In this document: piece after piece, positions 8,644-27,508 of the stretch
Layout of the letters: every line of letters begins with the position of its first letter
Numbering within the stretch: the stretch's first letter is position 1
NCBI GenBank assembly: GCA_937930305.1
Contig: CALGLE010000019.1
Location: 1 to 64,000, forward strand
Direction of reading: 5' to 3'
Length of the DNA: 64,000 nucleotides
Source of the DNA: an uncultured Granulosicoccaceae bacterium
GTDB lineage: Bacteria > Pseudomonadota > Gammaproteobacteria > Granulosicoccales > Granulosicoccaceae
Made by a program: the position numbers and the translations under genes
Notes under the pieces: model-generated
Databases searched by the model: none
What the model was told of the DNA's origin: nothing
What the model saw: only the letters and a program-made list of their open reading frames with translations

Positions 8644-8647
8644 ACTG

Positions 8648-9262
8648 ATGGAAACCTTAGATGTCACAACGCGCACAGAAACCCCGGATGCGGCAAGTAA
8701 TGATCGCGCCATCGGTTCAGCGTTAAGAGATTTACGAGAAACTCAAAGTTTGTCTGCTCGTCAGTTGTCCGAACAATCCGGAGTATCAGCAGCGATGATC
8801 AGTCGCATTGAAAGCGGTCAAGTATCCCCGTCGATTTCTACCATGACATCTTTAAGTGGTGCATTGGATGTCCCTCTGGTCAGCCTGTTTCGAGACATTG
8901 CCACAGAACGTACCGACTTCACTTATGTACCACATGGTGAAGGCGTGGTGTCCACTCGCATGATGGGTGAACACGAGCATCACTTTATCAACTTGGCTGC
9001 CCATAGGCGACGGGATTTAAATTTCGAAGCACACAAGGTCACGATAAAACAACAAGACGGTGAACCGCCAAGCTACATCGGCCATGGTGTTGTGTTCATT
9101 CACGTCATCGATGGTTCGGGTGTTTACGTTTACGGGAAACAAAAGCTTACGCTAAAAGAAGGCGATACCTTAAGTATTGATGCGGAATTAATGCATGGAT
9201 TCACGCAAGTACTCACTCCCGAAATCACCTTCCTATCCGTTCAAGCGGAAGCACGAAGATGA
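8648..9262 (+). CDS. XRE-family regulator with C-terminal cupin domain
   Basis: A 204-residue regulator from ATG 8648, four bases after the preceding stop codon. Residues about 20-75 are a helix-turn-helix of the XRE/SinR type (LRDLRETQSLSARQLSEQSG, then VSAAMISRIESGQ). Residues about 125-200 form a cupin barrel (GVVFIHVIDGSGVYVYG, then GDTLSIDAELMHGF) expected to bind a small ligand. HTH-cupin proteins of this architecture commonly control amino-acid, amine or aldehyde metabolism genes next to them. Its place inside the operon points to local control. It overlaps the next gene by four bases. Confidence 0.88.
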   Translation: METLDVTTRTETPDAASNDRAIGSALRDLRETQSLSARQLSEQSGVSAAMISRIESGQVSPSISTMTSLSGALDVPLVSLFRDIATERTDFTYVPHGEGVVSTRMMGEHEHHFINLAAHRRRDLNFEAHKVTIKQQDGEPPSYIGHGVVFIHVIDGSGVYVYGKQKLTLKEGDTLSIDAELMHGFTQVLTPEITFLSVQAEARR

Positions 9263-9849
9263 GCGCTTGGATCAGCATGATCAGCGATACCGAAGCGGAT
9301 GCTGATTTACAAGACGCACTAAAACTAGCGCGCACACCTCATGGAACGGTAGACAACGTGATGCGCGTGCATTCGCATCGCCCTAACACCCTACGGGCGC
9401 ATGTGGCTTTATATCGCGCCGCATTGCACGACGACGCGAACCAATTGCCCGAATGGTTACAAGAGACTATTTCAAGCTACGTGTCTATGTTGAACGACTG
9501 CCCCTATTCTCTGGCCAATCATTGGGCGAATGCGCGGCATCTTATAGGTGATGACGTGAAGGCAGATCGTGTTGAGCAAGCGCTAAAAAAGGATACGCCT
9601 GAAGCCGTATTCGACGGTAAAGAGCTGGCCTTATTGAACTATGCGAAAAAACTCACTGTATCTCCTGGCGCGATGCACGTTGACGATGTTGAGACTTTAA
9701 AAAACGCAGGCTTAGACGATGGAGAAATCCTAGAAGCAAACCAAATCATCGGGTATTTCAACTACGTCAATCGATTGTTAAATGGTTTAGGCGTAACCAC
9801 CGAAGGTGATACGGTCGGTTATTACGCCAGCAGTACGACAGATGAATGA
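9259..9849 (+). CDS. Carboxymuconolactone decarboxylase / AhpD-like (peroxidase-related) protein
   Basis: A 196-residue all-helical protein of the AhpD-like fold, closest in length and layout to the uncharacterised peroxidase-related group. The core motif sits in SMLNDCPYSLANHW: Cys81 and His88 are retained, but the second cysteine of the CxxC pair typical of AhpD is replaced by Ser84. A thiol-disulfide reductase cycle using both cysteines is therefore unlikely, and a decarboxylase-like or thiol-peroxidase role with one cysteine is more plausible. ATG 9259 overlaps the regulator stop codon by four bases. The substrate is unknown but probably belongs to the same pathway as the neighbouring oxygenase. 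Confidence 0.75.
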   Translation: MSAWISMISDTEADADLQDALKLARTPHGTVDNVMRVHSHRPNTLRAHVALYRAALHDDANQLPEWLQETISSYVSMLNDCPYSLANHWANARHLIGDDVKADRVEQALKKDTPEAVFDGKELALLNYAKKLTVSPGAMHVDDVETLKNAGLDDGEILEANQIIGYFNYVNRLLNGLGVTTEGDTVGYYASSTTDE

Positions 9850-9858
9850 GCGCCCCCA

Positions 9859-10950
9859 ATGAGTTCGCAAGAAACACCTTCTGATTTCGATGGCGCTATG
9901 AGTTTGATCCGTGATTGCGTGAACGGACGTAAAGGTGAGCGATTGCTCATTGTGAGTGAACCTGAAGAGAATGGGGTTTACGACAGCATCGCACCTAAAT
10001 TGGCAGCGGCGGCTGGTCGCCGTATAGGGATGACCGTATACGAGCTGCAATCAACTTCGTTTATAGACAATGAGGATGAAAAAGCCATTCTGCTGGATTC
10101 ACTTCGAGGGTTTGACCACATCGTATTCTTCTCGCGTGTGGGGGATCAAATTCGTTTTTCAAATGCGGATGCCATGCCCCCTTCGACCATGTGTTACACG
10201 CTGAACCAGCAATCATTAAATTCTGAATTTGGCACTGCCTGCCATCAAGGCATGAGCGAAATCAAATGGGCACTTGAGCAAGCGTTCCAACAATGTGAAG
10301 AAGCCACAGTGACCTGCCCCTTAGGAACGCACTACTCGGGGCGGCCAGACTGGGGATTGGATTCACCGGTCGAAGTGAGCTTAAAGCGCTTTCCGTTACT
10401 GGTTCCTCAGCCGATTCCAGCGAAGGGTTTCCGCGGTAAAGTGGCTTTGAGTCGATTCTTGATAGGCACCGGTTCAAAATACTATGAACCCTACTACTTA
10501 GCGTTGCCAAACACCGTTTTTGCCTGCGTTGAAGACAACCGAATTGTGCGTTTTGAAGGTTCGGCTGAAGATGTAATAGCTGTTGAAAATCACTACGTCC
10601 AAGTCTCAAAAAAACTCTCAATCGATCCATGGTTTGTCGATTCCTGGCATGCAGGAATACACCCGGGCTGTAATTTTGAAATGGACGCATCCACCGATAT
10701 CATGCGATGGTCGGGATCGGCCTTTGGAAGTCCGAGATTGTTACACTTTCATACCTGTGGGCAATACGCACCCGGTGAAATTTGTTGGAACGTACTGGAT
10801 GCAACCGTTGCACTCGATGGGGTTGAGATTTGGGAAAATGGCGTGTTACACCCTGAACGCCTACCCGATGGTGCGTCCGTTATGGAACGACACCCGAAAC
10901 TGGCTGACTTGTTTGCAAATCCGGTACGTGAAATCGGACTTACCTGTTAA
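9859..10950 (+). CDS. M29 aminopeptidase / NicX-like putative metalloprotein
   Basis: A 363-residue protein I place tentatively with the leucyl aminopeptidase M29 / 2,5-dihydroxypyridine dioxygenase (NicX) group. The basis is the overall length and the conserved-looking C-terminal histidine/acid cluster: DSWHAGIHPGC (about 256-266), the RWSGSAFGSPR stretch, and LHFHTCGQYAPGE (about 295-307). These histidines could bind a metal. It has no signal peptide or membrane segment. Whether it hydrolyses a peptide or amide bond or opens a ring is not decidable from sequence alone. It lies 9 bp after the AhpD-like gene and 12 bp before the aminotransferase gene, so it is in the same operon. Confidence 0.45.
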   Translation: MSSQETPSDFDGAMSLIRDCVNGRKGERLLIVSEPEENGVYDSIAPKLAAAAGRRIGMTVYELQSTSFIDNEDEKAILLDSLRGFDHIVFFSRVGDQIRFSNADAMPPSTMCYTLNQQSLNSEFGTACHQGMSEIKWALEQAFQQCEEATVTCPLGTHYSGRPDWGLDSPVEVSLKRFPLLVPQPIPAKGFRGKVALSRFLIGTGSKYYEPYYLALPNTVFACVEDNRIVRFEGSAEDVIAVENHYVQVSKKLSIDPWFVDSWHAGIHPGCNFEMDASTDIMRWSGSAFGSPRLLHFHTCGQYAPGEICWNVLDATVALDGVEIWENGVLHPERLPDGASVMERHPKLADLFANPVREIGLTC

Positions 10951-10962
10951 GTAGTCATAACC

Positions 10963-12099
10963 ATGCGTGATTTTGCTCTAGAAACATTTTTCTCGAAATG
11001 GGAATTTTCCGCTCGTCATCATATGACAGCTTCGGATGCTCAAAGTATGAGTATTGCTGAACTGATGACGTTAGCGAATCGCCCGATGGAAGAGCTGGGC
11101 GAGTTGCACTTAGGTTACACCGAAACTTGGGGGGCTCCACTGCTTCGAGAGGCGATTGCAAGCACATATGACTCACTTAATGCGAGCAATGTATTGTGCT
11201 TCGCTGGCGCTGAAGAAGGCGTGTATACCTCAATGCGCGTATTGCTCGATAAAACCGATCACGCGATCGTGGTTGTACCGAACTACCAAGCCGCTGAAAG
11301 TGTACCGCTGGACATCTGTGCTGTGTCGGGGGTTCCACTACTGGAACAGGAGGCTTGGCGACTGGATCTGGATGAACTGAAAAATGTCTTGCAGCCCAAT
11401 ACCAAGTTAGTATCTGTTTGCTTTCCTAATAACCCCACCGGTGCCATACCTTCTCACGAGATTTTTAAAGAACTCATTGATTTTTGTCGGCAACACGGTC
11501 TGTATTTATTCTGTGACGAAGTGTATCGATTGTTGGAGCTGGATGAATCCAAACGAATACCGCAGGCCGCCGACGTGTATGAAAAAGCCTTGTCGCTGAA
11601 TGTGATGTCTAAGGCTTATGGCTTACCGGGTTTACGGATTGGCTGGATCGCCAGTCAAGATACCGCGCTACTGCAAAAACTTGAACGCTATAAGCACTAC
11701 CTGTCCATATGCAATTCAGCACCCAGTGAACAGTTGTCCATCATCGCTCTAAGTGTGCGTGAGCAATTATTAAATATCGTGAAAGCACGCATAGGTAAGA
11801 ATCTAATCAAGCTGGAACACTTCTTTGAAAAACACGCTAATTTGTTTGAATGGACACAACCCGATGGCGGTTGCATTGCTTACCCCAAATTTTTGGGTAG
11901 AGGGGGCGTGGAAGAATTTTGTCAATCGCTTGTAGAAGAAGCGGGTGTGCTTCTGCTACCGGCATCCATTTATCATTCCGAATTATTGGAATCTCCACAA
12001 AACCGTTTTCGAATAGGATTTGGTCGGGAAGGTATTGATGAAGGCTTAGCGGCATTTGACGAATTCTTAGAACTTAAACATAACTCATTGGCTCCATAA
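10963..12099 (+). CDS. Class I/II PLP-dependent aminotransferase
   Basis: A fold-type I PLP enzyme of 378 residues. Visible landmarks are FPNNPTGA (about 152-159), the cofactor-contacting CDEVYRLLE, the Schiff-base lysine Lys217 in MSKAYGLPGLRIGW, and a late arginine in NRFRIGFGR for substrate carboxylate binding. The N-terminus (RDFALETFFSKWEFSARHHM) resembles a subgroup of unassigned aminotransferases that includes relatives of capreomycidine synthase, but I cannot assign the reaction. It is the last gene of the five-gene operon starting at 7675. An amino-acid-like substrate shared with the 2OG oxygenase is inferred. Confidence 0.8.
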   Translation: MRDFALETFFSKWEFSARHHMTASDAQSMSIAELMTLANRPMEELGELHLGYTETWGAPLLREAIASTYDSLNASNVLCFAGAEEGVYTSMRVLLDKTDHAIVVVPNYQAAESVPLDICAVSGVPLLEQEAWRLDLDELKNVLQPNTKLVSVCFPNNPTGAIPSHEIFKELIDFCRQHGLYLFCDEVYRLLELDESKRIPQAADVYEKALSLNVMSKAYGLPGLRIGWIASQDTALLQKLERYKHYLSICNSAPSEQLSIIALSVREQLLNIVKARIGKNLIKLEHFFEKHANLFEWTQPDGGCIAYPKFLGRGGVEEFCQSLVEEAGVLLLPASIYHSELLESPQNRFRIGFGREGIDEGLAAFDEFLELKHNSLAP

Positions 12100-12348
12100 A
12101 CACGCGCGCACCAATGCCCCCTAGCACAGCGTTCAGATGATAAAAACATCGCTTTTATGATGAATTAGGAGTATGCTGTCGCCATTGGAACGACGTTCCG
12201 ATCCTCTCTCGAGCCTAAACTCTCGCCAGTTTATCGGCAATTCACGAAATAATTACGCATCGATTTCACCATCGGTAATGAAGGCCTGACGGCGCTTCAT
12301 CGATTCTGTGTGCAGTCAATGAATTTCATAAAATTCACATAGACACCT

Positions 12349-13005
12349 ATGAATACAGACAAATCTGTACTGGATGAAGTACAGCCCACGATTCTATCAT
12401 TTGTCAAAGACCTACCCAATTTGTGCTCCTTAGCGGGACTGGCATGCACAGTGTCAGCGATTTATTTCAGCATCACGGGTGTGTTTTATGCCGCAATGAT
12501 AGGCATGGTTTGGGCTGTCGCATTTGATTGGGCAGATGGACTCATTGCCAGACGATTGCGTGGCCGTACGGAAAACGATATGCGCTTTGGCGGGCAACTG
12601 GACGTGCTCATTGACATTGTCAGTTACGGGGTTACGCCTGCAATCTTGCTGATGAGTTACGGTGAATTCGCACCAATCTATTTAGTGGGTGCCTTCATTA
12701 TGCTGGCCGCTGGTGTGCTGCGACTGAGCTATTTTTCGATATTCGGGTTGGCAGATGGCACACGATACCGAGGCCTTGCAATCGATAACAACAGTCTTGC
12801 TATTGTTTTCTTATTTCTTCTTGAAGCTTTTTTAAGTCGCGGTTTATTTGCGCCTTTGTTGTATGCGGTTTGTATTGGCTTGGCAGTTCTCAACGTGTCA
12901 AACATCAGCACGCCAAAATTATCCGGCAACCCAGTCAATGTCGTCTTACTTGCGGCGTACACGTTATTTATCAGTGGTGTGTATGGGTTGAAGCTCTTCG
13001 CTTAG
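12349..13005 (+). CDS. CDP-alcohol phosphatidyltransferase-family membrane protein
   Basis: A 218-residue integral membrane enzyme with about six hydrophobic segments. The signature of the family is present: Asp60, Asp63-Gly64, Ala67-Arg68, Gly81, Asp85, Asp89 (FDWADGLIARRL then GGQLDVLIDI), with four metal-binding aspartates. The gap between Ala-Arg and Gly is 12 residues instead of the usual 8 or 9. These enzymes move a phosphoalcohol group from a CDP-activated donor onto an alcohol, or a phosphatidyl group from CDP-diacylglycerol. Nearest overall feel is phosphatidylserine synthase. It is followed 63 bp later by a nucleotidyltransferase that could make its CDP-linked substrate. The product lipid or solute is unknown. 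Confidence 0.8.
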   Translation: MNTDKSVLDEVQPTILSFVKDLPNLCSLAGLACTVSAIYFSITGVFYAAMIGMVWAVAFDWADGLIARRLRGRTENDMRFGGQLDVLIDIVSYGVTPAILLMSYGEFAPIYLVGAFIMLAAGVLRLSYFSIFGLADGTRYRGLAIDNNSLAIVFLFLLEAFLSRGLFAPLLYAVCIGLAVLNVSNISTPKLSGNPVNVVLLAAYTLFISGVYGLKLFA

Positions 13006-13068
13006 TCATTCTCAAAATATGAGACGTGGGCTTTCCACTTATCGAATTAAATTCTAGGAAAAATCATT

Positions 13069-13530
13069 ATGCTCGTCTATACCGTTGGTACGTTCGACAT
13101 GCTACATGTAGGTCATCTTGCACTGCTAGAGCAATGCCGTACATTTGGTGACGAGGTGGTTGTTGGCGTAGCATCCGACAACGTTGTGGTTTCCTACAAG
13201 CCCAACGTGCCAGTTATACCGCTAAATCAACGACTGGAAATGTTAAAAGCGCTACGTTGTGTTGATCGAGTTCGCCCGTACTACGAGCTTGAGTATGTTT
13301 CAGCGTGTCGAGAACTCAATGTGGATGTGTTTGTCGTCGGGGAAGATTGGGGTAGAAAACCACATAATCTTGCCGTGGAATCGTATTTGAAGTCTGAAGG
13401 CAAACAAATCATTCAAATACTCTACAACCCTAGAACCTCGTCAACGGCGATAAAAAAGAACGTTGTCGCGCAAAAATTAAGGTCTGGCCCACGTATCCAA
13501 CATAACAATCCATCCGCTATCGCCAGCTAA
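13069..13530 (+). CDS. Glycerol-3-phosphate cytidylyltransferase-like nucleotidyltransferase
   Basis: A 153-residue cytidylyltransferase-fold protein that should couple CTP to a phosphorylated alcohol, giving CDP-alcohol. It begins at once with the Rossmann-like YTVGTFDMLHVGH, carrying the catalytic HxGH (His13, His16), and has the C-terminal RTSSTAIKK motif corresponding to RTxGISTT/RTEGISTS of TagD and phosphoethanolamine cytidylyltransferases. The length matches TagD. No teichoic acid genes occur nearby. Pairing with the upstream CDP-alcohol transferase gene suggests a two-step route to a phosphodiester headgroup. The alcohol (glycerol, ethanolamine, inositol or other) cannot be told from the sequence. 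Confidence 0.78.
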   Translation: MLVYTVGTFDMLHVGHLALLEQCRTFGDEVVVGVASDNVVVSYKPNVPVIPLNQRLEMLKALRCVDRVRPYYELEYVSACRELNVDVFVVGEDWGRKPHNLAVESYLKSEGKQIIQILYNPRTSSTAIKKNVVAQKLRSGPRIQHNNPSAIAS

Positions 13531-13614
13531 AATCAGGCTTAGAAATTCAAGCTGAATCAGAACATAAAAGATGATTTCTAACATCGAACCAAGTTGTGCC
13601 AACTAGGAATAGTG

Positions 13615-15186
13615 CTAGCCTCTTGACAGTTCCTGTTTTAATTCGTCTTTGTTGATTTTGTTCTGATCACTTTGAACTAACGGCAGAGATTTACGATAAA
13701 CAATACGTGTAGGTACCATGTAAGAGGCCAGATGCTTTTTTAATTCAAACGTAATCTCTTTTTCAGACAACTCACTGGCGCTGGAATACACCATTACAAT
13801 TTCTTCTTCAATCTGCGGGTTATCCAAACCAAATACCGCACATTGTTGAATTTGAGGCAAATTTTTCTCTACTACGGATTCAATTTCGAACGGTGACACC
13901 CTGAAGCCACTGGTTTTGATCATATCGTCGTGACGATCAACAAAATATAGATACCCTTCTTCGTCTTTGTATACGTAGTCCCCACTGGCTACCACAATCT
14001 CGTCAGCCAATTCGCCTTCTAAATTAATCACATTTTTCAACAGTTGAATGGATTTAAAACGCTCATTGGTTTCTTTCGGCGCATTCCAAAAGCCGCGGTA
14101 GATGTAGCAACCTCGATGAATCAACTCACCCACTTCACGTGGTGCGCACTCCTGGCCTTCCTCATTAATCACATATAGGGATACGTCCGGGATAGCTTTA
14201 CCAATTGAGTCTGGCCGAATCTTAATTTGAGCAGGATCCAAATACGTCGATCGAAACGCTTCAGTCAGTCCGTGCATAGAATAGAACTTGGCGTTTTTAA
14301 ACGTCTTTTCGCAGTTTTTTATCATCGACTCAGTGACGTTACCACCAGAGGACGTAATGATACGAACTTGATTAAACAACTCGGCATTGGGTTGGGTATA
14401 CAAGTCTTCATCAAACATCTGAGAAATGTTAACCGGCATCAGCGGAAGCACCGTGATTTCGTCGTTTACCAAATGATTGAAAAAATCATCCGGTAAAATA
14501 AATCGATGCAACGCCAAGGTGGCTTTATTGATCAAAGCACAAAAAATCTGATTCAAGCCGTAATCCAAGTTAAATATCAACAACCCAGATATCACATCAC
14601 TTTCTTTTAAATCTAAGTATTGGGAAACCACACGAGCCGAATCGATTAAATTTCTATGTGAAATTACAATGCCTTTCGGCGTACCAGTTAATCCGAAAGA
14701 GTACGTAATAACGGCGTTTTCATGACCATTGATCTCACAGTGATAGGGCTTGTTGTAGTACTTGAATATTTCCTCAAAAGACGGGATGTCACTATGAGTT
14801 GTTTCAATGGAGACAATGCGCCCATCAAAATTAATCTCTTCAATATTCTGTAATTTCAGTTTATCGGTGATGATGCATTGAATGTCGCAGTCATCAATAA
14901 TGTACTGAACTTGCTCTGGCTTTAGTAACCGAGTCAATGGGACCAAAATGTAGCCTGTGGATAGTACAGCCAATATGGCAATGACTTGAGAGGCACTTTT
15001 GTTTGAATAGATTCCTACACGAGCCCCTTTAGGTAAATCCAGCTCCTGCAGATACAAAGCGATTTGATTCGCTTTAGCCAGCAGTTCTTGGTAAGAAAGC
15101 TCATTCTCTTTATCAATAAGAGCAATCTTATCGGGGTGAGAGGCCGCAGCATTTTCCAGTAAAACGCGAATACAGTTTATCGACAT
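13615..15186 (-). CDS. AMP-forming acyl/aminoacyl ligase (ANL superfamily)
   Basis: A 523-residue adenylate-forming enzyme. Recognised motifs are HGLTEAFRS (A5), ASGDYVYKDEEGYLYFVDRHDDMIK (A7-A8) and the catalytic C-terminal lysine in QNKINKDEL (A10). The phosphate-binding A3 loop is unusual: TYSFGLTGTPKG, where most family members have a serine/threonine-rich SGSTG or SGTTG, so Phe and Leu replace two small polar residues. The gene is the last of the mutase-like operon, with its start codon overlapping the MutL-like gene by 10 bases. By analogy with vicenistatin-type clusters, where a similar ligase activates 3-methylaspartate made by glutamate mutase, it may activate the mutase product. This is inference; no carrier protein is encoded nearby. 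Confidence 0.75.
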   Translation of the reverse strand: MSINCIRVLLENAAASHPDKIALIDKENELSYQELLAKANQIALYLQELDLPKGARVGIYSNKSASQVIAILAVLSTGYILVPLTRLLKPEQVQYIIDDCDIQCIITDKLKLQNIEEINFDGRIVSIETTHSDIPSFEEIFKYYNKPYHCEINGHENAVITYSFGLTGTPKGIVISHRNLIDSARVVSQYLDLKESDVISGLLIFNLDYGLNQIFCALINKATLALHRFILPDDFFNHLVNDEITVLPLMPVNISQMFDEDLYTQPNAELFNQVRIITSSGGNVTESMIKNCEKTFKNAKFYSMHGLTEAFRSTYLDPAQIKIRPDSIGKAIPDVSLYVINEEGQECAPREVGELIHRGCYIYRGFWNAPKETNERFKSIQLLKNVINLEGELADEIVVASGDYVYKDEEGYLYFVDRHDDMIKTSGFRVSPFEIESVVEKNLPQIQQCAVFGLDNPQIEEEIVMVYSSASELSEKEITFELKKHLASYMVPTRIVYRKSLPLVQSDQNKINKDELKQELSRG

Positions 15187-16379
15187 GCGGCGTGTTCCTT
15201 TGCTCCTAACGTCCAGATGTCATAATTACCATCTAACACGGTGGCTGGCTTGTGGTCTGAATTTAGAATTTTCCGATAGAAAAACGCCACCACATCTTCA
15301 ATATCATCGCTTGTGAGTACTTGTGTGATACCACCTGTGAAAACAATGGAATTCATCGACAACAGTTTCAACGTTACGTAAGCGGGTCGATAGTGAGACA
15401 TCTTGCAAAGTACAAGAAAAATGGCTAGCTGCATCAGAATCTTAGTCGCCCGCTCACTATTTTCTTGATAGATGCTTTCATTCACTTTCAGGTGCATCAA
15501 TAACTCATAGGAAAACTCGTTTTGTTCAGCGGTAAAGATGAGCGATTGGCGGGATTTGTAAACACCTAGTTTTTTGAAAACCATCCGATCATGACCTTGC
15601 TCTGTGACGATATTGTCGCTCACCAGATCCTTGGAATAATGAACATCCGTTGTCGCACCACCGATATCAAGCAAAATAAACGGATCGGTGACAGAGAAAG
15701 AGCCTTGGATGAGAGGCAGAGATTTATTGACGACATACGGGGTGGAATAAATTTGATTATCGGTGATGTCGTATAGATGTTTGATGTCTTCTTTACCCTC
15801 AATGTCCTGTTGATAGAGGTTTGTTAAATAATCTTTTAGATGATTTTCCACAATGTGTAGACGGTCATCGATGATATTAGGCAAAACCGTTAATTTCTGA
15901 ATACGAGGTTTCAGCGTTGAAGCGTCTTGTGTGTTACCCACAAACACCACATTCGAATACTGACACTTAGCCAAATAATTATCTAATCGCTCGTCAAATA
16001 CCCCGCCATTGGAATCAATGCCGCCAACGACGATGACCACGTCGATCAAGTCACTGGGTACCGAATAGGTTTCAATATTCTGGAAGACAATGGAATCGAT
16101 GATATTAATGCCTGCGTTATAGGCAATATTGGTGGCGTACTTAAGTGAATACGATTGGGTCAAACCAATGATCAGTGTGCTCAATCCCCCATTGGCTGAC
16201 GAACATATGTGCACATCTTTCGCGTCAAAACGATTTACGGTCGCGCCGCATTTGTGCGTCAAATCATCCAAAATACGTTTATTGAAGTCACGGAAATGCT
16301 GTTCAATGGTATTTTCTGTACTGATTTTGAAGTAAGTACTACCAATATCAATCAACAGTTTGTCGGGGTTCGAACTCAC
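15177..16379 (-). CDS. GlmL/MutL-type protein (glutamate mutase accessory, actin-like ATPase fold)
   Basis: A 400-residue protein of the MutL/GlmL family, unrelated to DNA-repair MutL. These proteins accompany coenzyme-B12 glutamate mutases and are thought to reactivate or chaperone them. Two phosphate-binding motifs of the ASKHA (actin-like ATPase) fold are visible: LLIDIGSTYFKI near residue 8 and LLDIGGATTDVHYS near residue 237. It starts within the last bases of the GlmE-like gene (four-base overlap) and overlaps the ligase gene by 10 bases, so all four genes are coupled. Shorter than many GlmL proteins (about 460). Confidence 0.8.
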   Translation of the reverse strand: MSSNPDKLLIDIGSTYFKISTENTIEQHFRDFNKRILDDLTHKCGATVNRFDAKDVHICSSANGGLSTLIIGLTQSYSLKYATNIAYNAGINIIDSIVFQNIETYSVPSDLIDVVIVVGGIDSNGGVFDERLDNYLAKCQYSNVVFVGNTQDASTLKPRIQKLTVLPNIIDDRLHIVENHLKDYLTNLYQQDIEGKEDIKHLYDITDNQIYSTPYVVNKSLPLIQGSFSVTDPFILLDIGGATTDVHYSKDLVSDNIVTEQGHDRMVFKKLGVYKSRQSLIFTAEQNEFSYELLMHLKVNESIYQENSERATKILMQLAIFLVLCKMSHYRPAYVTLKLLSMNSIVFTGGITQVLTSDDIEDVVAFFYRKILNSDHKPATVLDGNYDIWTLGAKEHAACR

Positions 16380-17740
16380 TGCATGATTCCTATGTCGTGA
16401 ATAATGTCGTTAACAATATCTTTGGTGTCTTTATCTAAGTCACAGCATGATTTTTCGTAGGCGTAGCAGTTATCCGGTATCGGTACGTTGCCACGATCAA
16501 TGATGCGAATATTTTTCTGAGCATCTCGAATGGTGATCATTTTATTGTGATTGATGATATGTGGTGAAAACGGTACATCGATAATACCGCTCTTTATGCA
16601 ATTGAATACTTTGCGCCAGAGTGTGTCGGCTGGATCATTAAACACAGCTTCCATGATGGCGTGCACTTGGGCTGTCAGCATTTCCTCTTCATGCTCATCC
16701 ACAATGGTGGGTAGGCCACTTAGAATATTTAATGTGTATTGTGTATTCGCAACGGTTTGCGCATTGGCTTCTTTGGTGGGTATACCCACCGCCTCTTCCC
16801 GAGTTTTCGTAATAATCTTATCGGCACCCACCATGGATGCAATCACTGTGGACATGTTGATCAATTGATCGGCAGAATCTCGGTTGGTTGGAAAGGCTCC
16901 CATCCATTGGTGATATACCAAATGAATTTCCGCATCTTCGCAGCCGATCTGGCCGGCGTAGTACTTGGCCAGCTCCCGCGTCACTTTACCGGTCACAATG
17001 TCTTGAATCATTGAACCTTGCTGAGAGAAAGAGACGGAAAATGACTTCACACCCTCCTCCAGCGACAACAACATCTCCAGTAATTGGATCACTATGGTTA
17101 TAGAAGGCGGCACGAGCGTGGCGGTAAGCGGGCCGAACGATTCCCGATTAATGGGCTTATTTAATGTGGAGTAATCAGCACAAACGCGTTCAACGTATTT
17201 CCAATACAAAAACGCTTTGTCTAATGGGAAATTTTTTGAATACGGCAACAAATACGTGATGGGGCCACCTTCAATTTCAAAAATTCCAGAGGCAATTGCA
17301 ATTTCAATCAACAATCGGGCATCCGGTGTACCGTGCCGCAAACTCACCGGATGATTAAAATGCGTCATCATCTTTCGAGTGGTGCGATACCCATGGTTAA
17401 CCAGCGGATAACCATTGAGCATATCCACTTCATTCGCCTCACTTAAGCGCAACATTTTCTTCGCGGTCGAATAATCATTTAAACGTGTGTTGGAATCAAT
17501 GGTGAGCGGTAACACATCCACATTCGCATCAACAAAGAACTCATACAAAGCGAACTGCTTGTCATAGGTTGGAAAGCCACCACGAGGCTGAACCAACATT
17601 TTCTCTTTCTTGCCAAAATGATGCGAGATAAATAAATTTTCGTCTGCGTGTTTAACAAACTCTCGAACCTCATCAAAATCAAACGCATCCACGTTTTCAT
17701 TGCCGAGAATGATTTCCCGTTCTTCTTGCAGCTGACTCAT
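16376..17740 (-). CDS. Glutamate mutase epsilon (large) subunit homologue
   Basis: The start is set at ATG 17740, overlapping the sigma-subunit stop codon (ATGA), giving 454 residues against about 480 in Clostridium. The family interconverts glutamate and 3-methylaspartate by a radical mechanism with adenosylcobalamin. Active-site residues known from the Clostridium cochlearium structure are all present with nearly the same spacing: Arg53 (PRGGFP), Arg86 (SNTRLN) and Arg135 (LRHGTPDAR), the three arginines that grip the dicarboxylate, Glu157 (EGGPITY), Tyr163 and Tyr167. This supports a glutamate-like substrate. No methylaspartase gene is present nearby, so the fermentation pathway of clostridia is not complete here; a biosynthetic role is more likely. 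Confidence 0.85.
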   Translation of the reverse strand: MSQLQEEREIILGNENVDAFDFDEVREFVKHADENLFISHHFGKKEKMLVQPRGGFPTYDKQFALYEFFVDANVDVLPLTIDSNTRLNDYSTAKKMLRLSEANEVDMLNGYPLVNHGYRTTRKMMTHFNHPVSLRHGTPDARLLIEIAIASGIFEIEGGPITYLLPYSKNFPLDKAFLYWKYVERVCADYSTLNKPINRESFGPLTATLVPPSITIVIQLLEMLLSLEEGVKSFSVSFSQQGSMIQDIVTGKVTRELAKYYAGQIGCEDAEIHLVYHQWMGAFPTNRDSADQLINMSTVIASMVGADKIITKTREEAVGIPTKEANAQTVANTQYTLNILSGLPTIVDEHEEEMLTAQVHAIMEAVFNDPADTLWRKVFNCIKSGIIDVPFSPHIINHNKMITIRDAQKNIRIIDRGNVPIPDNCYAYEKSCCDLDKDTKDIVNDIIHDIGIMQ

Positions 17741-18150
17741 GCGGCGCGGTGTTCCTTGATGTAGTCTTCCAACATATCCAACCCGGTGTTTAAATCGACC
17801 TGATGGCATACCAAATCAAATCCATATTTTTTATATCGGGGAACGATGTCCTCGGCGTTGCCACTGCCCACCGTTAAATTCCCACCAATCATCATGATGA
17901 GCTTATCTAAGCTTTTATAAGTAGATTTGAGCGGTTTGACTTCACGGCTCCACCCTTCCGCCTCGCCGTTGAGAGAGGAAATCAGCAATACGTCAGCACC
18001 GGTTTCCACAGCGGCATCAAAAAATTCTTCAAGATAGGTGTTTACGCCCAAATTGAACACTTCGTAGCCCCTGGCATTCAACGACAAATCCATCAGTCGA
18101 TTGGCCACGACATGAATGTCATTGCCGATTACTCCGGTTACGATCTTCAT
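17737..18150 (-). CDS. Glutamate mutase sigma (B12-binding) subunit homologue, variant DxHxxA motif
   Basis: A 137-residue cobalamin-binding domain, the normal length for GlmS. The lower axial ligand histidine is present in GNDIHVVANRL (Asp11, His13), but the family's DxHxxG signature reads DxHxxA here (Ala16). Other cobalamin contacts look conserved: SSLNGEAEGW (cf. SLYGQGE) and IGGNLTVGSG. It is the first gene of the four-gene operon and is transcribed away from rraA. Cobalamin must be made or imported elsewhere; no B12 riboswitch was recognised in the 152-bp upstream region. Confidence 0.83.
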   Translation of the reverse strand: MKIVTGVIGNDIHVVANRLMDLSLNARGYEVFNLGVNTYLEEFFDAAVETGADVLLISSLNGEAEGWSREVKPLKSTYKSLDKLIMMIGGNLTVGSGNAEDIVPRYKKYGFDLVCHQVDLNTGLDMLEDYIKEHRAA

Positions 18151-18251
18151 TTGGCAGCGCGCGTTAGATTCAACCCACTATAGTAGCAAAAGCCCCCGTG
18201 GCTCGTAGTATCTGAGATGGTAGAATTTCGGCTTCTGGCCCCCCACGGGGC

Positions 18252-18287
18252 ATTCTGGCGACCCTTCAGTCGACCTTTCACGCGACC
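18252..18287. repeat. Three tandem 12-bp imperfect repeats in the glmS/rraA intergenic region
   Basis: Units ATTCTGGCGACC (18252-18263), CTTCAGTCGACC (18264-18275) and TTTCACGCGACC (18276-18287) share the pattern nTTCnnnCGACC at exact 12-bp spacing. They lie 15 bp before the rraA start and about 100 bp before the divergent mutase operon. They might be tandem regulator sites or a small replication-slippage product. Confidence 0.55.
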
Positions 18288-18302
18288 CAATAAGAGTAAA
18301 CT

Positions 18303-18785
18303 ATGGCCGAAGACTACACGGCGGATCATTGCGACACCTACCCTGAACAAGTCTCGGTGCTTGGGCCAGGTTTCCACAACTACGGCGGTGCGGCAATGTG
18401 CCAAGGCACAGCTGTGACCATTCGGCTAAACCAAAACAATGCAGACCTGATCACATTACTCAAGGAAGACGCCGGTACCGCCAAAGTGGTGGTTGTAGAC
18501 GCCAACCAAGAGTACTACGCCATCGTCGGTGAGAAGCTCATGACACTGGCTCAGGACAATGGCTACGTGGGTATCATCGTCAATGGCTACATTCGCGACA
18601 CAGCGCAAATTAAAACGATACCCGTGGCGCTGTACGCGCTGGGTACTTGCCCTCGAAAATCCATACCCGTCACTCAAGGTGAGCGTGACGTCCCTGTGTC
18701 ATTTGCTGGCGCCGAATTTCAACCCGGGGATTATGTGTACGCCGATACCGATGGGGTAATCGTCACATCCACTAAATTTAGCTAG
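18303..18785 (+). CDS. rraA: RraA-family protein (ribonuclease E activity regulator)
   Basis: A 160-residue protein matching the length of E. coli RraA, which binds RNase E and inhibits its activity; the fold is shared with class II aldolases such as LigK/HMG aldolase. Diagnostic stretches are the N-terminal ADHCDTYPEQVSVLGPGF, GTAVTIR, VVVVDANQEYYAIVGEKL, GIIVNGYIRD and PRKSIPV. RNase E regulator members lack the full set of aldolase residues, and the gene sits alone here, so the regulator call is preferred. Divergent from the mutase operon; there is no sign that the two are functionally linked. Confidence 0.85.
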   Translation: MAEDYTADHCDTYPEQVSVLGPGFHNYGGAAMCQGTAVTIRLNQNNADLITLLKEDAGTAKVVVVDANQEYYAIVGEKLMTLAQDNGYVGIIVNGYIRDTAQIKTIPVALYALGTCPRKSIPVTQGERDVPVSFAGAEFQPGDYVYADTDGVIVTSTKFS

Positions 18786-18965
18786 CTCAATTGGACCCAC
18801 TGACAGCAGATGCGGTTGACCGCGTTGCCACTTTGCGGCAAGATCCACGCTAAGGGGTAGCGATAGCCTCGTGAGACGACAGTCGAACAATCGCATCCAA
18901 AAATCTGAATCCGGTGCTGAAATATTGTTTCAAGTACCTTTTTTCCTACTCAGAAGGATGCAACC

Positions 18966-19781
18966 GTGACTTCACCTGTTCAAATAACTCATTCCCAGTT
19001 ACTGCGATTAATCGGAACGCCGAATGCTCCGGTGATCTTAGATGTGCGCATTGATGAAGATTTTGATGCTGATCCACAACTGATTCCGGGCGCTTATCGT
19101 GTCCCATTTACACAAGTTGAAACACAAGCAGAAATACTGCGCGGCAAAAAAGTGGTGGTTTATTGCCAAAAAGGTTTAAAAATCAGTGAAGGCTCTGCCG
19201 CTATTTTGCGCTGCTGTGGTGTCGATGCTGAAGTGCTAAAAGGCGGGCAATTCGCTTGGCGCGATGCCAACTTTCCGATGGTGCCCATGGCAAAAATTCC
19301 GACTCGAAATAGCGAGGGGAATTCTGTATGGGTAACTCGAGTCCGGCCCAAGGTTGATCGAATCGCCTGCCCTTGGCTGATTCGCCGTTTCGTTGACCCC
19401 AATGCGCGTTTTCTATTCGTTACCGCCTCACAAGTGAACAACGTGGCTGAGAAATTTAATGCAACCCCGTTTGACGTGGATGATGCGTTCTGGAGCCATC
19501 GAGGTGAGCAGTGCACGTTCGACACCTTGTTGCAAGAATTTGAATTACAAACAGAACCGTTGAACCGATTGGCTGACATTGTACGAGCGGCCGACACGGA
19601 TCAGTTAGACAAGGTCCCGCAAGCGGCTGGATTGCTGGCGGCATCCCTTGGGTTATCTCGCATGTACTCAAACGATCTAGAGCAGCTAGAGGCTGGCATG
19701 CTGTTGTATGACATGTTCTACCGTTGGGCGCGGGATGCAGTTGATGAATCCCACACGTGGTCCACCACACCATCCGCTTAA
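18966..19781 (+). CDS. chrB: ChrB-type chromate resistance protein with rhodanese domain
   Basis: A 271-residue two-domain protein starting at GTG 18966, eight bases after AAGGA. Residues about 1-100 form a rhodanese-like domain with the loop VVYCQKGLKIS around the putative active cysteine. Residues about 115-265 are the ChrB C-terminal domain (VTRVRPKVDRIACPWLIRRFVDPNA). ChrB proteins are reported as chromate-sensitive regulators or accessory proteins of chromate efflux. The gene is followed 20 bp later by the transporter ChrA, so they form a two-gene operon. A contribution to sulfur metabolism rather than chromate remains possible. Confidence 0.82.
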   Translation: MTSPVQITHSQLLRLIGTPNAPVILDVRIDEDFDADPQLIPGAYRVPFTQVETQAEILRGKKVVVYCQKGLKISEGSAAILRCCGVDAEVLKGGQFAWRDANFPMVPMAKIPTRNSEGNSVWVTRVRPKVDRIACPWLIRRFVDPNARFLFVTASQVNNVAEKFNATPFDVDDAFWSHRGEQCTFDTLLQEFELQTEPLNRLADIVRAADTDQLDKVPQAAGLLAASLGLSRMYSNDLEQLEAGMLLYDMFYRWARDAVDESHTWSTTPSA

Positions 19782-19801
19782 ACTCACCGGTTAGATCATC
19801 C

Positions 19802-21088
19802 ATGAATGATGAGTTACAAGAATCGCCAAGCTTGCGCGATGCGTTCCTGATTTGGTTGAAAGTGGGCCTTTTATCGTTTGGTGGGCCCGCTGCTCAAATC
19901 TCTTTAATGCATCGATTAGTGGTGAGTGAAAAGCAATGGCTCACAGAAAAACAATATCTCAATGGTTTGAGTTTTTGCATGTTGCTACCTGGTCCCGAAG
20001 CCATGCAGTTGGCCACCTATGTCGGGTGGCGGTTACAAGGGGTTATTGGTGGGTTAATCGCAGGCCTTTTGTTTGTGATACCCGGGGCCATTGTCATTGG
20101 TATTTTGGCTTGGTTATATGCGCTCTATGGCGAAGTGGCTTTGGTCAATAGTCTATTTCTTGGAATTAAAGCTGCGGTTATTGTGGTTGTTTTGGAAGCG
20201 TTATTTCGAGTTGCAAAAAAAGCGTTAGGTTCAGTGAGTCATTGGGTTATCGCCTTTTTATCCTTTATCGGTATCTTTTTTTTCAATTTGCCTTATCCGT
20301 TCATCGTATTGGCCGCAGCCGTATTTGGATTTTTCACAATCCACGCAGCATCCAGTGAGGAGCAACGAGTTCTCACCCCAAACCGAAATATGCTGCTAAA
20401 TACTTGCAAAACCGTCTTGGTTTGGTTACTTATCTGGGCCTCGCCCATTGTGTTGTTGCTTGTCGTTGCGCCTGATGGTCTACTCCTTCAGGTTGGCACT
20501 TTCTTCTCTCGCTTGGCCGTGGTGACATTCGGCGGAGCCTATGCCGTGTTGGCGTATCTTGGCCAGGAAGTGGTGGAGAATTACGGTTGGCTTAGCGCCG
20601 GCGAAATGATGGACGGATTGGGGTTAGCAGAAACCACTCCAGGGCCACTTATTTTAGTGACCGAATTTGTCGGCTTTTTTGCAGGATATCGTGAAGGTGG
20701 TTTAAGCGTAGCCATTGCCGCCGCTTTGCTAACCCTTTGGGTTACCTTTGCGCCGTGTTTTCTATGGATATTCGCTGGCGCGCCATACATTGAATGGATT
20801 AGCGATCAACCTCGGTTAAAAGGTGCATTAGCCGCTATTACAGCAGCCGTAGTTGGCGTCATTGCCAATTTGTCCCTATGGTTTGCCTTGCACGTTATGT
20901 TTACAGAGGTGGTCAGAGAATCTTGGGGGCCAATGCAACTGTGGCTACCTAACGTTTCCTCTATTGATTGGATCGTACTGCTGCTCACTGTTTTGTGCTC
21001 TGTGGCAGCGTTTCGGTTCCACTGGCCCATTGTGCGCATACTGCTTGCCTCATCCATTCTTGGACTCGTTCTGTCTACTGTGTTCTAA
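19802..21088 (+). CDS. chrA: Chromate transporter, long ChrA type
   Basis: An inner-membrane protein of 428 residues from ATG 19802 with about 10-12 hydrophobic segments in two homologous CHR halves. Each half carries a family motif: LSFGGPAAQISLMHR and LLPGPEAMQLATYVGW in the first, VTFGGAYAVLAYLGQE and TPGPLILVTEFVGFFAGY in the second. Bidomain CHR proteins export chromate or related oxyanions and lower chromate uptake. The frame is open upstream to 19757, inside chrB, but 19802 is preferred because it starts the conserved region. Actual substrate in this organism is inferred. Confidence 0.88.
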   Translation: MNDELQESPSLRDAFLIWLKVGLLSFGGPAAQISLMHRLVVSEKQWLTEKQYLNGLSFCMLLPGPEAMQLATYVGWRLQGVIGGLIAGLLFVIPGAIVIGILAWLYALYGEVALVNSLFLGIKAAVIVVVLEALFRVAKKALGSVSHWVIAFLSFIGIFFFNLPYPFIVLAAAVFGFFTIHAASSEEQRVLTPNRNMLLNTCKTVLVWLLIWASPIVLLLVVAPDGLLLQVGTFFSRLAVVTFGGAYAVLAYLGQEVVENYGWLSAGEMMDGLGLAETTPGPLILVTEFVGFFAGYREGGLSVAIAAALLTLWVTFAPCFLWIFAGAPYIEWISDQPRLKGALAAITAAVVGVIANLSLWFALHVMFTEVVRESWGPMQLWLPNVSSIDWIVLLLTVLCSVAAFRFHWPIVRILLASSILGLVLSTVF

Positions 21089-21528: not shown

Positions 21529-22824
21529 CTACTTATCCCATTGCACCTGTAGTGACGCTGGACCACGAAAGGTAATGTTCTGAGAATAGGTTAAGGGTTG
21601 GTTCTCCACCAAGCTTAAGCTAGGCAATCGTTCACACAAGGCTTCTAAAGCAATCGTGGCTTCTAGTCTTGCTAAGCGAGCACCCAAACAGAAATGGATG
21701 CCATGACCAAACGAGATGTGTTTGCGCGCGTTTTTTCTTTTGATGTCAAATTCCGCAGGTGAATCAAATAACGTGGGTTCATGGTTGGCGGCGGCTAAAC
21801 TTAAAAACACTTGAGTGCCAGCCGGAATGTTCACTCCAGCAATTTGCGTATCTTGCCGAGTCATTCGGCGCCAACTGGTTTGCGGCGAATCGAATCTGAG
21901 CACTTCTTCTAAGGCATTAGGTATGAGCGATGGATCAGCACACAACGATGACCACACGTCACGCTTAGGCAGTAAACACAGCAAGGCGTTACTGAGAAAA
22001 TTACTAACGATTTCATGACCCGCGAATGAATGCCCATAAATGATGGACTCCACTTCCCGGTACTCTAATTCTTCTGGGTTTGCCTCGTGTGCGTTCAAAA
22101 GCTCAGACGTTAAGTCGTCTTGCCTATCCTTCCAACGAGCCGCTACAAAAGCTCGACAGTAACACCAATAGCTCACCATTTTTTCCGCAATCTCAACCTG
22201 TTCGTCATCACTGGGTTTACCCCAGGTAAAGGCTAGACGATTCCCTGTCCAGGCCATCAGTTGTTCATCATCGGCCTCGTCAAACCCAATGAATCGGAAA
22301 ATGATTTGCCCAGGTAATGGATGTCCAAATGCACTAACAAAATCAGTTGGGCCGCCTTTTTCGATCATGGCATCAATGAGTTCTTGACTGCGCCGACGAA
22401 TGTAGGGTTCTAGGATTTTCATCCTGCGACCAGAAAACCCGTCGCGAGTGTATTTTCGGATACGTGTGTGATCAGGTTGCTGGCGATTTGACATAACCGC
22501 AACCGGGTTGAAGTCGTCGGCGGCTAGAACGGCTGCCGCTCGATCGCAGATGGGGAAAACCGGATCTTGCACATTTTCAGATGAATAGGTGTCATGGTCA
22601 CGGAATACTTCCGTCAAATCTTCCATGCGCGTTACCACCAGATAACCCAACTTTTCTGAATAAAATATGGGTTGTTGTTCGCGAATTTGCTTCAGCTGCG
22701 GGTACGGGTTCGCTAAGTATTCATCCGTGAAGGTTGTGAATTCATGATTAATGGGGCATCCACTGGGTTGTACACGTGGCGGTATTCTTATGTTGTGGTA
22801 GGCACCCTCTTTTTCGGTGGTCAT
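21529..22824 (-). CDS. Cytochrome P450
   Basis: A soluble bacterial P450 of 431 residues. The haem-binding loop SFGHGIHFCLGARLAR holds the axial Cys379, and the ExxR pair is in EEVLRF. In the I helix the usual (A/G)Gx(E/D)T reads AGHEI (268-272): the conserved threonine of the acid-alcohol pair is replaced by isoleucine. That residue helps proton delivery to bound oxygen, so monooxygenation may be unusual or use another proton path. No ferredoxin or reductase gene accompanies it. It lies 118 bp past paaX and precedes a DUF423 gene; a role in aromatic acid metabolism is possible but not shown. Confidence 0.85.
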   Translation of the reverse strand: MTTEKEGAYHNIRIPPRVQPSGCPINHEFTTFTDEYLANPYPQLKQIREQQPIFYSEKLGYLVVTRMEDLTEVFRDHDTYSSENVQDPVFPICDRAAAVLAADDFNPVAVMSNRQQPDHTRIRKYTRDGFSGRRMKILEPYIRRRSQELIDAMIEKGGPTDFVSAFGHPLPGQIIFRFIGFDEADDEQLMAWTGNRLAFTWGKPSDDEQVEIAEKMVSYWCYCRAFVAARWKDRQDDLTSELLNAHEANPEELEYREVESIIYGHSFAGHEIVSNFLSNALLCLLPKRDVWSSLCADPSLIPNALEEVLRFDSPQTSWRRMTRQDTQIAGVNIPAGTQVFLSLAAANHEPTLFDSPAEFDIKRKNARKHISFGHGIHFCLGARLARLEATIALEALCERLPSLSLVENQPLTYSQNITFRGPASLQVQWDK

Positions 22825-22941
22825 CGTGCGGTCTCCTACGAAAGATTTGCCTGCCGATAGCTAAGGCGTCGATGCAGCGGAATACTACGTAAATTATGAC
22901 AAAAACTTTAGCACGATTGCCTACGGCTCGCCAGAGCCTAT

Positions 22942-23682
22942 TCAAGCAGAGTCTAAATGCGCCGTAGCGCGCAGCACAATTTGTATTTGCTGGTGGCAAT
23001 CGATTACAACGCTGCCGGGAACATGCTGCATGTGAAACATGGCAGCATCACGTAGGGAAATTTTTCGCCAAAAATGCAACGCTAAAAATCGCAAAGCGTG
23101 CAACTCAATCAAGTCTGGGGGTGGCTTTTGTATGTCTAATTTAGCGAGCACTGCAAGAAGCCTCTCAGCCAACGCGATCACACTGACCAAATCGTCTGCC
23201 TCATTGACCCATTCCGGTAACACTTGATTTGCCCAGGGCATGATCAACGCATCTTGAACAGCGGATACCTCATTTGATTTGATCGCATAAACACCGGCAT
23301 AAAGTTTTATCGGTGCTAATTCATCGGGTAGTCGCGACGGATTTACTACGCACAATGCCCAGGTTGGTGTATCTTTTTGCTGAGCGTTGTATATCAGATC
23401 CCAAACGGCGTGCGTTTCTCTTAAGGCTTTTTCTGACAATGAGAAATAGCTGATCCGTCCTTGCTTACGCGATTGAATCCAGTCATCTTTTTTCAGTCGA
23501 TGCGCGGCCACCCGAAAAGCTTCTGCACTGATATTCAGGGTTTGAAATATTTGATTTAGCCACGGCCCAGAAACTTCTTTTGACTTAGACGGCGCGGTAT
23601 CGCCCAATATGGTGATGAGTAAAGACCAAACGCGTATTTCGCCGATCTCATTTAAGGCGGCAATGGCTTCTGTTGTTTTCAA
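22942..23682 (-). CDS. paaX: PaaX-family transcriptional repressor of phenylacetate catabolism
   Basis: A 246-residue regulator. PaaX proteins repress paa genes and release DNA when phenylacetyl-CoA binds. The N-terminal winged helix is seen in LNQIFQTLNISAEAFRVAAHRLKKDDWIQSRKQGR (about 45-80), followed by the PaaX-specific central and C-terminal domains, including LPEWVNEADDL and the conserved PGSVVI near the end. It overlaps paaZ by four bases at the far end of the paa operon. The inverted repeat at 31162-31197, covering the paaA promoter, is the most likely operator. Confidence 0.86.
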   Translation of the reverse strand: MKTTEAIAALNEIGEIRVWSLLITILGDTAPSKSKEVSGPWLNQIFQTLNISAEAFRVAAHRLKKDDWIQSRKQGRISYFSLSEKALRETHAVWDLIYNAQQKDTPTWALCVVNPSRLPDELAPIKLYAGVYAIKSNEVSAVQDALIMPWANQVLPEWVNEADDLVSVIALAERLLAVLAKLDIQKPPPDLIELHALRFLALHFWRKISLRDAAMFHMQHVPGSVVIDCHQQIQIVLRATAHLDSA

Positions 23683-25727: not shown

Positions 25728-25743
25728 GGGGCAGAGGTTTCTT

Positions 25744-27051: not shown

Positions 27052-27067
27052 CGGCTGCCTTCCACGT

Positions 27068-27508
27068 TTATTCTTCGAACAAATGACCTTTGATGGTTCG
27101 TGAACCACCACGAAATTGAGCAACCACCAAGTTGTCCTGATTGCGCACTTCTACATCATAGATACCCGATCGCCCAACCAAACTCACTTCCCTAGCGTGA
27201 GCATGCAACGTATCCCCAACACCAGCTGGAGCAATGTAGGTAATGGAATTGTGTTGCGCTACGGTTTGTTGATTACGACTGTTGCAGGCAAATGCAAAGG
27301 CGGAATCTGCCAAAGCGAAGGTAACACCGCCATGACAATTACCTAAACCATTGCAATGATGGGCTTCAATCGTTAATGATAAGTGGGCTGTTCCTTCATC
27401 GACATTGACGATGTCCATGCCAACCCACTGTGAGGCCGCATCGGTACGCCACATCACATCGGCAGATTTCGTAGCCCGTTGTTTTGGGGTCAATGTTGAT
27501 TGGCTCAT
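27068..27508 (-). CDS. paaI: Hydroxyphenylacetyl-CoA thioesterase (PaaI)
   Basis: A hotdog-fold thioesterase of 146 residues. It hydrolyses ring-hydroxylated phenylacetyl-CoA and so rescues CoA from dead-end products of the pathway. The signature is HHCNGLGNCHGGVTFALADSAFAFACNS, with the catalytic acid (Asp in LADSAF) and the Asn/Gly-rich loop. It directly abuts the paaE stop codon (one base apart) within the operon. Confidence 0.9.
   Translation of the reverse strand: MSQSTLTPKQRATKSADVMWRTDAASQWVGMDIVNVDEGTAHLSLTIEAHHCNGLGNCHGGVTFALADSAFAFACNSRNQQTVAQHNSITYIAPAGVGDTLHAHAREVSLVGRSGIYDVEVRNQDNLVVAQFRGGSRTIKGHLFEE

Follow-up and report, generated by a model that had tools for sequence, protein, structure and literature searches.

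The DNA analyzed here, referred to as the window, comprises the 64,000 nucleotides at positions 1 to 64,000 of contig CALGLE010000019.1 (assembly GCA_937930305.1) from an uncultured Granulosicoccaceae bacterium. One run of four genes on its minus strand, mutS, mutE, mutL and a gene for a stand-alone adenylate-forming ligase, occupies positions 13615-18150, and successive genes overlap by 4, 4 and 10 bases (Table 1). A preliminary description of this DNA had proposed four overlapping genes for a GlmS-like protein, a GlmE-like protein, a MutL/GlmL protein and an adenylate-forming ligase, which was borne out by the coordinates and by Pfam and NCBIfam matches. The unit is larger than described there: the divergently oriented rraA, a near-constant partner, had been overlooked, and an aminotransferase gene is frequent at such loci in other Gammaproteobacteria. 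The genes and their partners are called the cassette below. The open reading frame of mutE is listed to 17809; the conserved MSQLQEER begins at 17740, so that the ATG at this position is the likely start.

Table 1. Genes and features of the cassette in the window (aa, amino acids)
Feature	Positions	Strand	Evidence
mutS/glmS, B12-binding subunit, 137 aa	17737-18150	-	NF002612 144.6 bits; PDB 1be1 1.8e-20; D11, H13, A16 in 74/74
mutE/glmE, glutamate mutase catalytic subunit, 454 aa	16376-17740	-	PF06368 1.8e-117; PDB 6h9e 3.4e-85; 8 active-site residues 82/82
mutL/glmL-like mutase accessory protein (probable reactivase), 400 aa, GTG start	15177-16379	-	PF13941 1.7e-25; tblastn 83/83 loci
Stand-alone adenylate-forming ligase, 523 aa, amino-acid-type pocket, unusual A10 loop	13615-15186	-	PF00501 4.7e-63; nearest NCBIfam TIGR03098
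RraA/HMG-aldolase-family protein, 160 aa, divergent from mutS	18303-18785	+	PF03737 3.4e-36; 73/83 loci; R98 + D99 69/69
Intergenic, 152 bp, rraA/mutS; possibly shared divergent promoter	18151-18302	.	promoter-like AT-rich cores recurring in many loci, by eye only

B12-dependent glutamate mutases are known mainly from fermentations and from actinobacterial polyketides. Both a separate B12-binding subunit S and a catalytic subunit E could be identified in the cassette by family and PDB matches. MutE scored far above the cut-off of PF06368 and narrowly missed that of the curated MutE equivalog TIGR01503 (378.5 bits, cut-off 390.1). Positions were counted on the alignment of MutE to the solved glutamate mutase of Clostridium (6h9e), in which GlmE R66, R100, R149, E171, Y177, Y181, K326 and E330 corresponded to R53, R86, R135, E157, Y163, Y167, K312 and E316 of the window MutE. 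All eight were invariant among the MutE relatives; we take the first six to act on the substrate and the last two to belong to the adenosyl site. Because these glutamate mutase residues are invariant, MutS and MutE are very probably an enzyme that would convert glutamate to 3-methylaspartate, and the glutamate-like substrate that had been predicted earlier from the arginines, the glutamate and the tyrosines is upheld. MutS passed NF002612 (cut-off 110) and stayed below TIGR01501 (91.3 bits, cut-off 135.8). In its cobalamin motif, DxHxxG is replaced by DxHxxA, with Asp and His kept and Ala in the place of Gly in all 74 sequences. MutL reached 79.1 of the 475 bits required for the GlmL equivalog NF040745 and is a distant GlmL.

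In subunit make-up and in the substrate- and adenosyl-site residues the cassette resembles the GlmES/MutL system of Clostridium (PDB 1cb7, 6h9e). It differs from this system in the MutS motif, in a shorter MutL that scores far below the equivalog, in the linkage to a ligase and RraA, and in the methylaspartase, which was not found. The family of the latter, PF07476, gave 0 matches in the genome of the window and no convincing match in 21 mutase-positive genomes, nine of which contained weak partial matches. Two of these lay just above the cut-off (27.5 and 27.6 vs 27 bits) and covered partial stretches of frames of 443-455 aa; 11 of 14 control genomes also matched, two of them over the cut-off. 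The lack of a methylaspartase gene reported in the preliminary description is supported, and a search beyond the operon in the 21 genomes gave no convincing copy.

To describe the linkage of the genes, relatives were collected with two short peptide patterns, and the best 80 of 216 relatives from named genomes were combined with the window and two further loci to a set of 83, so that all linkage counts refer to the closest relatives. Near-identical loci, such as L116 and L117 from one isolate, were counted separately. As a first clustering undercounted genes because of antisense or over-long frames (RraA 71, MutS 74), totals were taken from a tblastn recount. All 83 loci had MutE and MutL, and 82 had MutS; the ligase was present in 78, RraA in 73 and an aminotransferase in 35, and the next most frequent neighbour family reached 9. 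This joint search for mutase and ligase, as had been suggested for the pair, revealed a conserved neighbourhood: the ligase gene lies directly 3' of mutL in each of the 77 displayed loci that have it, among them gamma-, beta- and Campylobacterota records. The five loci without a ligase (L050, L058, L064, L096 and L119) end in mutE or mutL, and L043, in which the ligase is present, is cut within mutE.

In the family of the window, the mutase was found in 18 of 48 genomes, that is in 16 of 27 within the genus and in 2 of 21 outside it. Searches for RraA, ligase, aminotransferase, decarboxylase and threonine dehydratase covered 16 of the 18 mutase-positive genomes (G022 and G025 were omitted) and 13 of the 30 mutase-negative ones. 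A close ligase (at least 80% identity) could be identified in 15 of the 16 positives and in 0 of the 13 negatives, the exception being G034, whose contig ends in mutL. Close RraA proteins were found in 16/16 and 0/13 genomes, respectively, with 66-76% identity (the window itself 100%) vs a best match of 39% in the mutase-negative genomes. An even draw of the class yielded PF06368 in 5 of 369 genomes, one of which (G061) has it in an unrelated context. This genome contains a distinct, divergent glutamate mutase set of E, S and L (L037, 8609-11993), which by eye adjoins acyl-CoA dehydrogenases, a crotonase and an aldehyde dehydrogenase.

RraA seems to be a partner of the mutase and no bystander. 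By aligned range, its R98-D99 pair, kept in all 69 sequences, corresponds to Arg-123/Asp-124 of the HMG/CHA aldolase 3noj; Glu-199, the other metal ligand of 3noj, lies beyond the range matched. Fold family and the Arg-Asp pair of the metal/enolate site are thus common to the cassette protein and the HMG/CHA aldolase and RraA family (PF03737; 3noj, 1q5x), from which it differs in its divergent linkage to a B12 mutase. The solved relatives closer than 3noj comprise RraA proteins together with proteins that were deposited as menaquinone methyltransferases. In G012 and G024 (L049 and L051) rraA is not adjacent but lies ∼5 kb from mutE. The ten loci without rraA are the partial L043, two Sulfurimonas loci (L078 and L084) with just ∼0.5 and 0.9 kb available upstream of mutS, and seven Arcobacter-type loci (78% identity) titled Arcobacter, Aliarcobacter or, once, 'bacterium'. 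The six genomes with these seven loci have RraA homologues of 44-49% identity elsewhere, and the additional RraA copies of G034 and G418 share only 37-40% identity with that of the window. Beside the cassette of Colwellia maritima (L067, G419:C3:210374-210786), RraA matches as two adjoining pieces in different frames.

The AspC/TyrB-type aminotransferase of the 35 loci does not occur in the window. Mutual identity among its 35 copies, of which 33 are of fuller length, is at least 66% (mean 77%), and the one copy scanned, that of L058, gave a match to the model for aromatic amino acid transaminase. G034 contains a cassette aminotransferase and a second copy elsewhere in the genome that is 57% identical. 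Because the genus of the window has only homologues of 40-48% identity, in mutase-positive and mutase-negative genomes alike, the aminotransferase is a cassette member in some lineages and not in that of the window.

The preliminary description had remarked on the occurrence of the mutase-ligase pair in a gammaproteobacterium. This stands for many marine Gammaproteobacteria, but the cassette is not confined to them and is also found in Campylobacterota and some Betaproteobacteria (titles include Granulosicoccus, Colwellia, Thalassotalea, Amphritea, Neptuniibacter, Reinekea, Haliea, HTCC2143, HTCC2148, Vibrio hannami, Sulfurimonas, Arcobacter, Rhodoferax and others). Identity to the window protein of 78-94% over such wide distances, combined with a patchy presence, suggests that the cassette has spread horizontally. 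In Mantel tests, the distances of ligase, MutS, MutL, RraA and aminotransferase tracked those of MutE with r of 0.65-0.80, compared to permutation maxima of 0.15-0.30. Carriage on plasmids was considered and rejected, since 30 of 30 plasmid records matching MutE were less than 60% identical. Two further observations concern single records: L056, a contig titled Rhodothermales with a MutE 91% identical to that of the window, is possibly misbinned, and L116 and L117, cassette contigs with identical neighbours from one Aliarcobacter isolate (STC_124), represent either a cassette duplication or an assembly artefact.

The best NCBIfam relative of the ligase is the exosortase A-associated ligase TIGR03098 (ligase_PEP_1), the cut-off of which was not reached (451.8 bits, cut-off 592.35). 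Its nearest solved chains are amino-acid adenylation domains of nonribosomal peptide synthetases (NRPS), and 3wvn, listed as VinN in an excerpt of PMC11253843, was matched at 2.5e-38. The pocket segments FNLDYGLNQ (F in 75/77, other positions in 77/77), ITSSGG (77/77) and HGLTEAFRS (76/77, with a single unread residue in the remaining one) are strongly conserved, and D208, Y209, S280 and R312 are invariant. By our reading of the alignments, these four appear to stand at the places of VinN D230, F231, S299 and K330/R331, which the same excerpt (PMC11253843) describes as the residues for 3-methylaspartate. The chance that 3-methylaspartate is the substrate of the ligase is put at about even. Among 76 sequences, position 510 of the A10 loop is most often Q (28), followed by K (25) and R (16), and a lysine is present at 508 or 510 in 58 of the 76. 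The predicted structure has a mean predicted local distance difference test score (pLDDT) of 67, and residues 305-420 and most of 153-179 are below 50.

A TIGR03098-like ligase in genome G001 (520.8 bits, also below the cut-off) has no adjoining mutase and shares FDYGLNQ and TEAFR with the cassette ligase, whose A10 loop is two residues longer. The pocket motif may therefore mark a wider group of amino-acid ligases. With the TIGR03098/TIGR03099 exosortase A pair the cassette has in common the closest ligase family and, by comparison with the G001 ligase, LDYGLNQ/FDYGLNQ and TEAFR; unlike this pair, its ligase stays below the family cut-off, lacks a decarboxylase partner and is accompanied by a mutase. 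In G001 the TIGR03098-like ligase adjoins a decarboxylase that passes TIGR03099 (L124, 6730-9609), the only such decarboxylase among 29 genomes searched. The cassette ligase of G001 (G001:C327:8766-10327) matches as two pieces, one with an internal stop, and is on a different contig from its mutE (C195, a contig ending in mutL).

Taken together, the cassette is proposed to be a horizontally spread unit that would make and activate 3-methylaspartate for a non-carrier acceptor, a reading to which we give a probability of roughly 0.5. MutS and MutE with adenosylcobalamin, kept active by MutL, would convert L-glutamate to (2S,3S)-3-methylaspartate, as the invariant active-site residues indicate. 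The ligase would adenylate this product, perhaps at the carboxyl next to the methyl group as in VinN, and the activated 3-methylaspartate would be transferred to a small acceptor, for example CoA or an amine, and not to a dedicated carrier protein. An aminotransferase, which is encoded alongside in some genomes and is a housekeeping enzyme in that of the window, might speculatively convert 3-methylaspartate to 3-methyloxaloacetate, which the RraA-family enzyme might in turn decarboxylate to 2-oxobutyrate, as a branch or as a drain for excess; this RraA step is doubtful.

Several points weigh against the proposed reading. The enzyme activities are predicted, and the acceptor is a guess. A search for a VinO-type pyridoxal phosphate (PLP) decarboxylase (TIGR03099) gave 204.9 bits vs a cut-off of 478.45 in the genome of the window, a match that is presumably lysA. 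A dedicated carrier protein was not found in this genome, which is 94.7% complete, so that its absence is likely but not certain. Two PP-binding domains are present there. The first is in a frame of 103 aa that is presumably AcpP, and the second shares a frame of 1199 aa with a weak ligase homologue; neither lies by the cassette, and the earlier statement that no carrier gene is near the operon holds. In the carrier-domain search of 8 positive and 8 negative genomes, the other mutase-positive genomes had 3 to 7 such domains and the mutase-negative ones 2 to 9, and a pattern was not evident. Because the G001 ligase that has no adjoining mutase shares part of the pocket motif, the pocket is not proof of 3-methylaspartate. 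The A10 lysine of adenylating enzymes varies in the cassette ligase, and adenylation may be slower or may use a different residue. The seven Arcobacter-type and two Sulfurimonas loci are without RraA. For the aminotransferase, the genome of the window has just a 47% homologue, as negatives similarly do, and the cassette copy was found in 0 loci titled Sulfurimonas, Arcobacter/Aliarcobacter, Helicobacteraceae, beta proteobacterium or Rhodoferax. Cobalamin adenosyltransferase was present in all 24 genomes searched (16 positive and 8 negative) and gives no specific support. The Mantel correlation, which was run on the cassette genes alone, partly reflects shared organism ancestry.

Among the alternatives, the one that survives best, although improbable, is that the cassette represents the old 'glutamate mutase pathway' to 2-oxobutyrate and isoleucine via 3-methyloxaloacetate and RraA, with the ligase peripheral or removing a side product. 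An excerpt of PMC7476758 names this pathway, cited from Abramsky 1962, as one of at least nine routes to 2-ketobutyrate; the steps given for it here are our speculative reconstruction. The near constancy of RraA compared with the mutase and the aminotransferase of the 35 loci fit this route, as does the HMG/CHA aldolase of RraA fold, which according to an excerpt of PMC5065237 also decarboxylates oxaloacetate. The route leaves the invariant amino-acid-type pocket of the ligase unexplained, however, and it would be superfluous for isoleucine in most genomes, as, of the genomes searched, 14 of the 16 mutase-positive and 12 of the 13 mutase-negative ones have the C-terminal domain of threonine dehydratase. 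Because of its presence in the 14 carriers, isoleucine supply is not the obvious purpose, and a need of the cassette for isoleucine was rejected.

Less probable still is a vicenistatin-like starter unit, in which carrier-loaded 3-methylaspartate would be decarboxylated to give the 3-aminoisobutyrate of a polyketide or peptide. The first half of vicenistatin starter-unit synthesis, as outlined in an excerpt of PMC11284099, resembles the cassette route: VinH/VinI and VinN likewise combine a glutamate mutase with a stand-alone adenylation enzyme that has comparable pocket residues, and the related G001 ligase adjoins a decarboxylase that passes TIGR03099. That cut-off was passed by G001 alone of the 29 genomes, beside its own ligase, and 13 of 14 control genomes matched below it. 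The cassette further differs in its variable A10 lysine and its RraA partner, both PP-binding domains of the genome lie away from it, and no additional neighbour family exceeds 9 of the 83 loci. The likeness to vicenistatin that had been noted therefore holds for the first two steps, mutase and ligase, and not for the decarboxylase and the dedicated carrier; as these were searched for and not found, the cassette is not classed as vicenistatin-type.

Slightly behind comes the explanation that the ligase belongs to the ordinary fatty-acid or general acyl-CoA ligases and is in the operon by chance. Many acyl-CoA ligase models match it strongly, its best curated name is that of such a model, and its A10 loop is unusual. 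Against this, the Asp at the amino-group position is invariant, NRPS adenylation domains are the closest solved relatives, and the position directly after mutL is kept in all 77 displayed loci. Finally, glutamate fermentation or a methylaspartate cycle with methylaspartase encoded elsewhere is highly improbable: PF06368 is the mutase family used there, but PF07476 gave no match in the genome of the window and its other matches are weak, partial and also seen in controls, and the cassette is not the glutamate mutase fermentation pathway, which an excerpt of PMC4682846 gives as known from Clostridia and some enterobacteria.

The findings place a B12 radical mutase in a compact cassette of many marine lineages, together with partners not previously linked to it in the literature searched. 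Among 5.39 million papers, none paired 'glutamate mutase' with 'RraA', and no description of the cassette was found, most subscription papers and preprints being outside the coverage of the search. It is possible, at somewhat less than even odds, that the combination of B12 glutamate mutase, RraA-family enzyme and modified stand-alone adenylation enzyme represents an undescribed mobile marine pathway, leading to a new small 3-methylaspartate-derived metabolite or supplying the missing genes of the B12-dependent 2-oxobutyrate route, and a branch of the RraA family would then gain a metabolic role instead of that of 'RNase E regulator'. If the proposed reading of the cassette is right, the old proposal for a route to 2-oxobutyrate becomes testable at the gene level, marine bacteria may have an extra B12 demand, and the names 'RraA' and 'long-chain-fatty-acid-CoA ligase' may mislead for these genes.

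The surroundings of the cassette in the window were also inspected. Control by a riboswitch was rejected, as six cassette loci had no Rfam match at the gathering score; in the window, a scan of 12000-19200 yielded only chrB-a and a chance snoRNA match. The chrB-a RNA (44.3 bits, gathering 43.9) lies upstream of a chromate-resistance pair at 18849-21088 (+), in which a ChrB C-terminal domain with a rhodanese is followed by the ChrA transporter. A bigger cluster that would include cytidylyltransferase, CDP-alcohol transferase and aminotransferase (10963-13530) was rejected, since none of them recurs by the cassette in other loci. Convergent to the ligase, a CDP-alcohol phosphatidyltransferase adjoins the cytidylyltransferase (12349-13530, +) and is not conserved with the cassette. 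A possible small biosynthetic cluster at 7675-12099 (+) comprises a 2-oxoglutarate-Fe(II) oxygenase, an XRE-cupin regulator, a peroxidase-related protein, a 363-aa protein that gave no match in Pfam and NCBIfam scans, and an aminotransferase related to GntC and capreomycidine synthase with scores below the cut-offs. On the other side, at 21529-27123 (-), a cytochrome P450, a PaaX-like regulator (below cut-off), a PaaZ-type bifunctional protein and the phenylacetate-CoA ligase PaaK are encoded consecutively.

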